From the NCBI GenBank assembly GCA_018907035.1, contig JACCIC010000035.1, positions 1,502,001 to 1,566,000 of the forward strand: a DNA stretch of 64,000 nucleotides, written 5' to 3'. The notes beneath the pieces were generated by a model. The model saw nothing but the letters and a program-made list of their open reading frames with translations. It was not told where the DNA came from and ran no database searches. Made by a program: the position numbers and the translations under genes. The number at the start of each line of letters is the position of its first letter. Position 1 is the first letter of the stretch. The DNA comes from Sycobia sp. Sy_11. Taxonomy: Eukaryota; Arthropoda; Insecta; Hymenoptera; Epichrysomallidae. This document shows positions 11,467 to 15,364 of this stretch, piece after piece.

Positions 11467-11727
11467 TCACATCTCCGTGTTCTCCTCGTCCAGGTCCTCG
11501 TCGAGCTCGGGCAGCGTGTAGACCGCGGGCGGCGGCACCGGCCTGAGGTGCTCCTCGAGCTTGAGGATCGGCTTGCAGTCGCGGGTGACGTCGACCTGAT
11601 TGTACGAGTCCTTCAGTATGTTCATCTCGTTCTCGTGGGCGAAGATGCTGGCCGGGGGCGGGGGCTCGCCCATGCAGAGGCTCTCCTCGGTGACGTTGCG
11701 ATGGCAGAGGTTGCTGCTCGGAAATTG
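11467..11727 (-). CDS. Candidate readthrough C-terminal extension of the K2P channel (86 codons)
   Basis: Directly after the TGA at 11730-11728 the same frame runs 86 sense codons to a second TGA at 11469-11467. By hand count about 81 of 86 codons end in G or C, like the upstream exon. The peptide looks like a channel tail: QFPSSNLCHRNVTEES, a PPPP stretch, SIFAHENEMNILKDSYNQ, a PVPPPAVYTLPEL segment and an acidic end (DEDLDEENTEM). The stop context is TCG-TGA-CAA-TTT. A C after UGA is known to be leaky, and CAA-TT resembles the CARYYA downstream motif of some readthrough stops. I tested plausible small introns across the TGA (56 and 74 nt, using the AG before CAACC). Both break the frame. 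Alternatives are A-to-I editing of UGA, an alternative exon elsewhere, a sequencing error or a recent nonsense allele. That it is coding seems likely. How the stop is passed is inference. Confidence 0.6.
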   Translation of the reverse strand, partial: QFPSSNLCHRNVTEESLCMGEPPPPASIFAHENEMNILKDSYNQVDVTRDCKPILKLEEHLRPVPPPAVYTLPELDEDLDEENTEM

Positions 11728-12008
11728 TCACGAGGTCATGGCGAACGGGTCGCCCGTGAGCTCGTCGACGCTCGAGCTCGGCTTCACCGGCTCCTGCTTG
11801 TCGGCCTGGTGGGAGAGCCGGTGGACGATCTCGTCGTGGAGGATGTTGAAGCACATGGCGGTCAGGGCCATGCCGGACATTATGTAGCACGAGCAGAACC
11901 AGACGGTGGCGTTGCGCGCCTCGAGGGCGTTGTAGCTCGGGTAGGAGCCCGGCACCATGTCGCCGAAGCCGATCGTGCTCAGGCTCATGAAGCAGAAGTA
12001 GCTGGCGT
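11728..12008 (-). CDS. K2P potassium channel, last exon to first stop: pore loop 2, M4 and proximal C-terminus
   Basis: The exon begins after acceptor GCACCTTTCAG. Two bases complete the split Asp codon and 92 further codons precede TGA at 11730-11728. Visible residues 164-184 contain pore loop 2 (DASYFCFMSLSTIGFGDMVPG) with the TIGFGD filter. An N-A-T sequon lies at 196 on the predicted extracellular side. Residues about 198-220 form M4 (WFCSCYIMSGMALTAMCFNI), followed by HDEIVHRL and a short polar tail ending DPFAMTS. The two pore loops make one subunit, and K2P channels assemble as dimers. The short product is complete at this TGA, but the same frame resumes immediately (next entry). A 262-codon frame (12046-11258) and a 154-codon antisense frame over this exon are products of its very high GC content. 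Confidence 0.92.
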
Positions 12009-14265
12009 CTGAAAGGTGCGAAATTTTCTGTAATTATGCCTGCCACGCTTTAACGTATATTATTTTCTTTCGTTCGCCCGGCGAAAACATAGCTTTATTT
12101 TTCGATCGTCTTTAATTCATGCGCTCAAGTATATTTAAGATTTTTACATGACTCTTTACATGCACTTAAAGATCTCACATGCTTCTTGGCTCAAACAGAA
12201 AAATAGAATCGACGCGTCCCAACGAAAACTAGCAGAATTCATTTTCGCGCCGGAAAGTAGCGCATATCCCTAACTCTGTCAGCAAGAGTAACACAATTAA
12301 CAGTTAACGGAGAAAATCCCAATTATCAATTATAGTAAACTTCTAGGTAAATAAATGAGATGTGTTAGTTTTCGACGAAAAATTGAGAACGTGCTTGTCT
12401 TCGGACTACATGAAATATATTAGTTTTCGTTAGAGGAATCACTATAAGTGGAGTTTTTAATAAAAAAAGTAATAATTTTAATTTTCAAGCTACACGAAAC
12501 AAAAGAATACTTTTCAGAAAGTACGTGATACTTTGACTCTGTTGTTGTTGTACAAGTAATATAAATGCTTAATCTTAGAAGTTTAATAATTCAAATGAAT
12601 GTAAATATATTGGTATTACTTGAAATATTCGAAGTACTTAAAGACTTATTTAAATCAAAATTAAATATGAAAAATGCGAACTATACGTTATAATATTAGA
12701 AATATTAACAAACAAATATTGTATAGAAAGGGAATAGAGAAATAAATTATTATTCTCTATTATTACCTTTATTGACTGAAATATTACAAATAATTTTAGA
12801 CTACCGAAATCGTAGAAAAAAATGATCTGTAATAGAAACCTAAAAACAACTATTCTTAAATAAAAGATTTTAAGAAATTTTTCTAGTTAGTTATTTTGTA
12901 TTTATAATATTGATTATTAGTGAAGTTTTTGAATTATTTGATTTTTATGTTACATTTTGTTCAAATGCAACGTTCGAATCGATTATTGATGAATTCACTT
13001 ATTCCTTTGTTAAAGGACGCAATAAAGTTAAACATATTTATCAGTATTCGCTATGCAGCCAGCAAAATAAAGCTATTCAACAGTCTATTTTAGTTTCTAT
13101 AGAATTTTATTTCATTAGAATATCGACTAAAACGATTCTATAAATATTTTTAGTTATATATTTGTAATAAAAAACTTTTGTTTGAAAATATATTTGTAAA
13201 GTAAATATAAATATATTGTGCAGATTTATTGAGGAACTAGAATATTTACCTAACTTGTTATTATCGTGAAATAGAAATTTCAATTAAGTGTGAATTAAAA
13301 AACTATAAAATGCATCGACTGATAACAATATTCATTTTTGTAAAGAATGAAGCTAGTAAAAAGTAAATATTCTATAGATATATGCTTGTTGTTGTGACTG
13401 TTAACAAAATAAAGTTTGATTATGTATTAAGTGCTTATAATATGTTATGAATGTAAAATATTGAATAAATAATCGCTTCAAGTAATATTTTATTCTTTCT
13501 TTTATTTATATTACAAATTGTCACTATCCATGATAGCCCTTATCAAGGGTTGAAATTTAAACACGTTAATTTATAAATATTCTAAATATTACATATTGTC
13601 TAAAAATAAATACTATTAATTAACATCTCGTCATAAAATGAAACTTAATAATACAAAATTTAATAACGGTAAGCTTATATAAATATATAATAAATTTAAG
13701 TATACTAAAATATGAAATGGAAAAAGAAAATCCATCCAAACATAAAAGTAAATGCAGGGAGAGTATATTTATAATAATTTCGTGTCACGAGTTATCCAGC
13801 CGCTAAGAGGTGTATCCATCCAGAGCTATGTATTTTGTTTGAAAGGATGAAATCAAACAAGTTTAAAAAGAATAAATAATGAAAATTAATATAATAGAAA
13901 CAGCAGATAAAGAGAGAGCGGATTTATAATTCAGGATTTATAATTCTGGAGATAATTTACAACATCTTTATAGGATTTTTCATAACTACTTTTTAAATTC
14001 AATTTTATACGAAGATGCTAATTATTATTATTCACTTGCCGACAAAATGTAATATTAAGAGCATTTATATAATTAGTATATATTTATACAATTAAACAAT
14101 TTTCTTCTCGCTGAAGATCGTTCGTGATAGACGAAATGCTGGGACGTAAGCAAAAGAAAGGAGAACATTTTGCTCTGAGCGATATTTTATTCAATAGAAC
14201 AAAGTAAGGTGAATGGCCTAAATCGACATAAAAACGAGTGGCAGTTGGTAGAAACAGCGATTCAC
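12009..14265 (-). other. K2P intron (phase 1), 2257 nt
   Basis: It is bounded by GTGAAT and TTTCAG. It is strongly AT-rich throughout, with no recognisable exon, RNA gene or transposon. A 77-codon plus-strand frame at 12910-13143 is low-complexity AT-rich DNA without a recognisable domain. Confidence 0.8.
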
Positions 14266-14551
14266 CTATGAAACTCCAGCCCTCGAGTTTGTGCAGTACG
14301 AAGGCCCCGGCGATGATGTAGCACAGCATCGCCCCGAGGCAGATGCTAATCGGCGCGAGTATCGTGACGTTCGGCCGATCGCCCGAGCTCAGGCTCGACA
14401 CCTCGTCCTTGGGGCTGGCCTTCATCTCCACCGAGCTCGGATACGTCGAGGCGTTCGCCCTCACGTAGAACGGCTCCTGGAGCTGGAGCTGCTGCTGCTG
14501 CTGGGCGAGCTCCTCCTGCTGTCTTCGCTTCCTCATGCGCCGCTCCTTCTC
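14266..14551 (-). CDS. K2P potassium channel, internal exon: cytoplasmic linker, M3 and start of pore loop 2
   Basis: The exon has acceptor CTGTCTCCAG before GAGAAGGAG and donor ATAG/GTGAAT. Its 286 nt give 95 codons in phase 0 plus one base that completes an Asp codon in the next exon. Visible residues 69-93 are a charged, glutamine-rich segment (EKERRMRKRR, then a run of five Q) continuing from YDERRMQ. Residues about 94-127 are a Ser-rich cytoplasmic linker. Residues about 131-153 (ILAPISICLGAMLCYIIAGA) form helix M3. The exon ends LEGWSFI, the usual lead into pore loop 2. Joining gives WSFI-D-ASYFCF, a classic K2P junction, which confirms both splice sites. The frame continues past the donor to 14084, but that tail is AT-rich and unlike a channel, so it is intron. 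Introns of 607 nt upstream and 2257 nt downstream are implied. Confidence 0.92.
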
Positions 14552-15158
14552 CTGGAGACAGTGGGGGGGAAGAAAAGATGTCGGACGAACGACGCGTGAG
14601 TCACGTTCGTTCTGGAGCGATCTCGCGAAGAAATAACGGCTAATCCACCTGTGTGTGCGCGTATGTGCGTTCTCTTGTTTTTTTTTGTTTTTTTTTTTTT
14701 TTTGTTCATTGCATTCGAACTAATCCAGATATCGACGTCGAATTTTTCGCAAATAACGGCCCGGGCGAATATTTTTTTAGTATCTTCGGGCGCGTGTAAA
14801 GTCGCGGCTAAAATATAGCGGCTCGAAGAACTTATCGTTGCGAAAGATTTAAGCGAGCTCGGGCTAGAGAGAGAGAGTGAGTGAGATAAAAAGATAGTCG
14901 GATTAACGTAATGAGGCAGCCGCGTATCTTCGCGTACTTTATTCAGGCTAACAGTTGCGGCGGCGGAGAGGGACACAAAGTGCCACGACGCAGAACGAAC
15001 GCGGAAAGCCGGCAAGCACGCGGCTTAAAGCCTGGCCGCGGGCGCGCCCGATTCTCAAGCGCGGTGAAAAGGCATTCCCGAGCTCGCCCGCTCGCGCGTC
15101 AGGTGGAGAGTAGGTAGACGTATTATATGTGAGAGGAAAATGCAACACATACGCTCAC
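14552..15158 (-). other. K2P intron (phase 0), 607 nt
   Basis: It is bounded by GTGAGC and CTGTCTCCAG, with a pyrimidine/C-rich tract just before the acceptor. It contains a poly-T/A stretch near 14678-14703 and moderate GC. No coding signal was seen in it. Confidence 0.85.
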
Positions 15159-15364
15159 CTGCATCCGCCTCTCGTCGTAGCAGCAGTAGCCGCAGTTCGA
15201 GCAGAGGCAGCAGCAGAGGGCCCGCGTGAAGACGCCACGGGCGCACCTGGACAGCAGGCCACCGGCGCTCGAGAGGTAGATCAGCGTCAAAGGGATGCCC
15301 ACGAAGGCGTAGCCCATCGTCACCACTTTGCCGAGGGTCGAGCGGGGCGCGATGCTCCCGTAGC
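15159..15364 (-). CDS. K2P potassium channel, internal exon: end of pore loop 1, M2 and Cys-rich loop
   Basis: This exon encodes part of a two-pore-domain K+ leak channel, a plasma-membrane protein that sets resting potential. The sequence shows an acceptor (CGACAG) just before GC-TAC-GGG and a donor (CAG/GTGAGC). The 206 nt give a split first codon plus 68 codons. Visible residues 1-7 (YGSIAPR) complete the GYG filter of pore loop 1, residues about 11-35 form helix M2, and residues 50-61 hold seven cysteines in twelve positions (CCCLCSNCGYCC) before YDERRMQ. An intron splitting the first Gly codon of GYG in phase 1 is, to my knowledge, a widespread K2P gene feature, and it decides the start here. 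The frame stays open a little upstream (reading TTGYG), but that lacks the Ile/Val of the filter, so I treat it as intron. The exon joins the next one in phase 0. Assignment to the insect TWiK-like group (often annotated 'TWiK family of potassium channels protein 18') is from memory. Confidence 0.9.

Follow-up and report, generated by a model that had tools for sequence, protein, structure and literature searches.

A UGA-C stop codon at a conserved position and a conserved coding extension behind it point to translational readthrough in an insect K2P channel gene

Does the reading frame of a wasp K2P channel end at its first stop codon, or can it be carried further? The question is raised by a gene on the minus strand of a 64,000-nucleotide stretch of DNA from Sycobia sp. 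Sy_11 (contig JACCIC010000035.1, positions 1,502,001 to 1,566,000; termed the window below), which belongs to a genome of 621 Mb. This gene is the wasp member of a group of insect K2P channels to which NCBI gives the names TWiK-family or KCNK18-like. Its frame is interrupted by a TGA followed by C and remains open behind it, for which an earlier note on the sequence had proposed stop-codon readthrough. The conserved readthrough candidate is real and stands well beyond chance, and the sequence comparisons presented here make it very probable that a functional and ancient UGA-C readthrough adds a disordered tail to the channel.

A coding signature between two stop codons

As the earlier note had stated, the channel frame stops at TGA 11730-11728 and then runs through 86 open codons to a second TGA at 11469-11467. 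Our recount of G/C-ending codons in this extension (81/86 third positions, 94.2%) also reproduced its figure of about 94%. GC content by codon position was 63/35/94% in the extension (first 54/86, second 30/86, third as above), 49/46/99% upstream of the first stop and 70/88/72% past the second one (32-33 codons), where the periodicity is lost. The third-position bias of the extension has a binomial P of 4.5e-11 against the stretch's own GC content. Since 86 open codons would arise by chance at this composition with a P of about 0.13, the case is carried by periodicity and conservation and not by the open frame as such. A coding continuation beyond the second stop was considered separately and rejected: periodicity is absent there, and mean pairwise identity is 16% (five rows of the comparison described below).

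No second genome copy or paralog of the extension was found in the genome search, the other four matches being one distant channel-like sequence (E 8.7e-6) and three with E values above 0.1, one over residues 87-124. The extension matched no Pfam family. The first stop is followed by CAA in the window. UGA-C is a leaky stop context, UGA being open to decoding by a near-cognate tRNA. The resemblance to the CARYYA readthrough motif that had been remarked upon holds in part: CAATTT agrees with it at 5/6 bases and is not a full match.

Related proteins end or continue at the same position

Three protein searches, from which the best 120 of 266, 477 and 444 matches were taken, yielded 265 distinct proteins. 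The comparison was made at the protein level only; places in the relatives were judged from the protein tails, without one alignment of all, and the order of unlabelled rows was assigned from similarity. When the listed proteins were sorted by pattern, 206 ended at the place corresponding to the first stop, 35 had a tryptophan there and continued (the W rows) and 24 bypassed the stop region and continued. Re-sorting by eye turned two of the 206 ends (P0001 and P0126) into bypass models and three (P0074, P0088 and P0251) into proteins that look broken or truncated, which gives about 201 ends, 26 bypass models and 35 W rows. The final residue of the 206 pattern-sorted ends is serine in 192 and proline in nine, the latter including three named proteins, all from flies.

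The earlier note had named a stop conserved among orthologs as support for readthrough, and relatives of several insect orders do end at the corresponding place; named proteins that do so come from ants, bees, braconids, a sawfly, a fig wasp, Nasonia, beetles, moths and butterflies, a lacewing and mosquitoes. The opposite outcome, a sense codon in orthologs, was not seen among the 265 listed proteins. None of them was found to continue with a residue other than W at the stop, and a pattern search for a junction with another residue retrieved only glutamine-rich stretches before the stop, plus P0126.

The W at this position most likely stands for a TGA rendered as tryptophan by the translation table used, because all 35 W rows are automatic translations (W at the stop position occurs in no listed protein named by NCBI), because five of them (P0013, P0017, P0019, P0025 and P0135) have W at the second stop as well, and because two match a stop-ending NCBI protein at 44/44 preceding tail residues (P0013/P0222 in Pogonomyrmex and P0022/P0260 in Microplitis). 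A search for the DNA of relatives detected no related locus in viral contigs (query P0011) or in genome contigs (query A1).

The extension is conserved as far as the second stop

Conservation past the first stop, on which the earlier note had made its proposal depend, extends as far as the second stop and not beyond. For a set consisting of the window and 14 of the 35 W rows, those judged hymenopteran, mean pairwise identity was 82% over P2-M4 (second pore loop to M4), 63% over the 27 residues before the stop and 71% over the extension. All 14 of these hymenopteran-type relatives have Q directly behind the stop, and therefore C follows the stop codon, in agreement with the TGA-C context pointed out earlier; the next residue is F throughout (QF 14/14). 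Over all 35 W rows the residue after W is Q in 22 and R in 13, and N-x-T-(E/D/Q)-E occurs after W in 32/35.

The extension is also recognizable outside the wasps. Beetle-type rows have LTEETL in common (7 W rows) and run out through VYTLPE or VYTVPE, mostly to EENTEM or EENTQM. Among the dipteran-type W rows (RY after W, n=12), 11/12 continue NTNLYQRNPTEETL, and the moth-like row P0078 has NFTEES and VYTLKEE...TTPM. Two Schistocerca models end GGVYTVREE...TAEM, both without the stop region, so that the stop itself is not seen in them; these ends suggest that the extension originated before Holometabola.

The lepidopteran rows (P0199-P0265) fall into two channel groups, with tails resembling ...(F/Y)YM(S/N)S and ...F(L/I)(H/Q/R)RS, and each group has a similar W row that continues (P0080, P0078). 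Both lepidopteran copies may thus keep the readthrough.

The class I PDZ ligand pattern (S/T-x-hydrophobic) at the end of the long form occurs in 33/47 extension C-termini caught by pattern, a count in which the window is one row and close relatives are counted singly. Of these 47 C-termini, 38 have M at position 0 and 32 have T at position -2, and position -1 varies; the pattern missed P0003, ending NTEM, and P0212, ending HVNT. In wasps and beetles the end of the extension could play the role of a PDZ ligand. In the AlphaFold model of relative P0011, block values of the predicted local distance difference test (pLDDT) lie at about 39-52 from residue 61 onward, and the M4 helix (residues 21-63) is the sole element of secondary structure. 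The extension is predicted from this model to be disordered, and the lack of a fold is consistent with the disorder reported for fly readthrough extensions (PMC4999894).

The channel gene in the window

Three K2P exons were mapped on the minus strand (Table 1), the last of which begins at an acceptor reading TTTCAG^AC. They contain GYG and GFG pore motifs and the M2, M3 and M4 regions, and the protein joined from the three exons is matched in two stretches by Pfam Ion_trans_2 (E 4.4e-23). The first of these exons is 97% identical over 71 amino acids to P0250 of Ceratosolen (fig wasp), the nearest of five relatives compared by tblastn, a closeness that suggests a chalcid wasp as the probable host. 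With the same five relatives as queries, the M1 and cap exons gave no tblastn match in the window. Since such a match is absent from 15365-64000, more than 48 kb of intron probably lies upstream of 15364.

Table 1. Positions in the window of the channel exons, the two stop codons and the parts of the extension.
Feature	Positions	Strand	Basis or remark
K2P exon: end of first pore loop (GYGS) and M2	15159..15364	-	phase-1 start, donor GT at 15158; tblastn, splice sites
K2P exon: M2-M3 linker and M3, ending GWSFI(G)	14266..14551	-	donor GT at 14265
Last exon up to first stop: second pore loop, M4, short cytoplasmic tail ending DPFAMTS	11731..12008	-	
First stop TGA, context TCG-TGA-CAA-TTT; proposed readthrough site	11728..11730	-	
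Candidate readthrough extension, 86 codons	11470..11727	-	codon periodicity, conservation, no second copy found
Conserved block HRNVTEES	11680..11703	-	protein comparison
Conserved block HENEMNILKDSYNQVDVTRDCKPILKL (hymenopteran-type rows)	11557..11637	-	protein comparison
C-terminal T-E-M of long form, class I PDZ ligand pattern	11470..11478	-	
Second stop TGA	11467..11469	-	similarity and coding signature end there

Splicing, editing and other explanations of the interrupted frame

Alternative splicing is the main rival to readthrough: an intron whose donor precedes the TGA and whose acceptor follows it, within this exon or, in Diptera, in the one after, would remove the stop from the mRNA. 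The earlier note had held that an intron spanning the TGA, with plausible local donors, would break the frame, a claim that has to be given up, as 59 frame-preserving GT-AG pairs were found in a scan for GT-AG introns of at least 40 nt. The best of them, 11787 to 11596 (192 nt), scored 0.6 at the donor and 0.8 at the acceptor with approximate weights, as compared to 3.2 and 6.4 for the gene's own donors and 1.6-4.6 for its three acceptors, and its use would delete HRNVTEES as well as some of the second conserved block. The 26 database models that bypass the stop speak for splicing, above all where they share a re-entry point, at N-x-T in nine and at TPTS in five dipteran ones. Re-entry at N-x-T, however, needs an AG that is absent in this species (CAT CGC AAC), and the models concerned leave the frame at varied points, the Cotesia models P0002 and P0004 differing from each other. 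Dipteran-type rows diverge after TEETLITG in an intron-like manner, and a second donor there could be joined to the following exon, as happens in five dipteran models; in some insects the tail could thus be provided by splicing. In the hymenopteran-type relatives, the conservation of QF straight after the stop would have no explanation if these codons were spliced over. We consider it unlikely, on this evidence, that splicing and not readthrough joins the tail to the channel.

Two models re-enter at the stop itself. In Bombus impatiens, the NCBI model P0126 (LOC117151981) passes from KQEP straight to QFPSG and so resumes exactly with the codon that follows the stop. Re-entry at this point needs an AG, and Bombus may therefore have TAG there or a real short intron, which would suit splicing. 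In Hermetia illucens, model P0196 resumes immediately behind the stop position (QHYERTANLYQQN); this species may have lost the stop, or the intron of the model may be artificial.

The remaining explanations fare worse than splicing. A-to-I editing is common in insect ion-channel mRNA and would turn UGA into UGG (Trp), in keeping with the W at the site in 35 automatic translations. Five W rows, however, have W at the second stop too, as a translation table would produce, and W rows P0006 and P0023 start with unrelated, intron-like translated sequence and seem genomic. Moreover, the base before the A is G, which ADAR disfavours at this place, and no notable RNA structure was found. Editing, which had been offered as the second possibility, found no positive support and is very improbable. 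A stop due to sequencing error, polymorphism or recent nonsense mutation would fit a DNA sequence seen from one genome only, and is more improbable still with about 200/265 listed related proteins ending at the corresponding place. Selenocysteine insertion has in its favour that the codon is UGA. To our knowledge, Hymenoptera and beetles lack selenoprotein machinery; Rfam, which includes models of the selenocysteine insertion sequence (SECIS), gave no match at gathering threshold in the window. The earlier note had already ranked this explanation low, and with no positive support for it we give it a negligible chance, the smallest of all.

Several observations weigh against readthrough. DNA was available from one species, the relatives being compared as proteins, and the TGA behind their W is deduced from translations. 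The 14 hymenopteran-type relatives of the identity set were chosen because they read through, and identity over the first 10 residues of the extension is 67%, as against 74% for the 10 that precede the stop. The PDZ pattern fits 1/11 dipteran models and 0/2 Schistocerca models. The 26 bypass models, with their nine re-entries at N-x-T and five at TPTS in Diptera, and the re-entry of P0126 exactly after the stop codon, where an AG would be needed, also count on this side. Finally, no stable RNA structure was found downstream: seven windows of 60-200 nt 3' of the stop gave z values of -0.76 to 0.22, and one window including the stop gave z = -0.99, which was not taken as a stimulator.

Discussion

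Under the readthrough mechanism that we propose, the majority of ribosomes would terminate at the UGA after DPFAMTS and produce a short channel, and a minority would decode this leaky UGA-C by a near-cognate tRNA, thereby adding an 86-residue cytoplasmic tail whose sequence appears to be under selection at the protein level. The production of a short form and of a form about 86 residues longer, as first suggested in the earlier note, is supported at the protein level by the conserved stop and extension. In wasps and beetles the tail of the long form would end in T-x-M, a possible PDZ ligand, and readthrough would set the number of subunits open to tethering or sorting. A more far-reaching proposal, which we regard as possible but rather doubtful, is that readthrough goes back at least to the holometabolous ancestor, perhaps to one shared with Orthoptera, that the extension taken as a whole is under stronger conservation than the tail preceding the stop, and that the UGA acts as a translational switch, settling which subunits receive a PDZ-binding end and thereby the site of the leak channel.

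The features of interest are thus the depth of conservation and a possible PDZ switch. If true, this would be a very old and well-conserved readthrough event in animals, linked to membrane excitability, in which the location or regulation of a leak channel depends on termination efficiency. Public models of the gene would then often be wrong at the C-terminus, being either truncated at the stop or routed past it by splicing. With a single exon here, TGA-C and no RNA structure found, the locus offers a simple test case for a long-kept leaky stop in insects.

Readthrough as a mechanism is already known in insects, but the case in this gene appears unusual in its age and conservation. Hundreds of readthrough genes have been reported in Drosophila and Anopheles (PMC5100048; PMC3840789), and at least 306 of 851 readthrough candidates in the bumblebee (PMC7826183). 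The present gene resembles them in its in-frame TGA followed by C, its coding second open reading frame up to the next stop and its predicted-disordered extension; the lower identity of its first 10 residues past the stop (67%, against 74% for the 10 ahead of it) also agrees with what is described for such genes, but over its full length the extension has a higher identity than the 27 residues that precede the stop (71% against 63%). TGA is commoner among ancient readthrough genes (P 0.057 and 0.041), as is a following C, the latter not significantly; a single-genome test in the same study found honey bee and Tribolium without abundant readthrough, possibly owing to incomplete annotation (PMC5100048). 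The main texts of PMC5100048 and PMC3840789 do not contain the word "channel", nor that of PMC7826183 "potassium channel", and we found no mention of readthrough in this channel in the literature, the supplementary lists, which may already include the gene, lying outside this coverage.

Among channels of known structure, those nearest by sequence to relative P0197 are KCNK9, 3, 1 and 6. The name that NCBI gives to many insect relatives is that of vertebrate KCNK18 (TRESK), of which we know no readthrough form. TRESK is similar in that its M2-M3 loop is long and its C-terminal region short (PMC10206819). The nearest functional parallel found, by analogy, is AQP4ex, the readthrough form of mammalian aquaporin-4, which makes up about 10% of AQP4 in the mouse central nervous system (PMC6444679). 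It also belongs to a membrane channel, whose anchoring site is decided by this minor form. AQP4ex differs in being mammalian, in its 29-residue extension and in the unrelated protein that carries it, whereas in the insect channel a PDZ-type end would be gained by readthrough.
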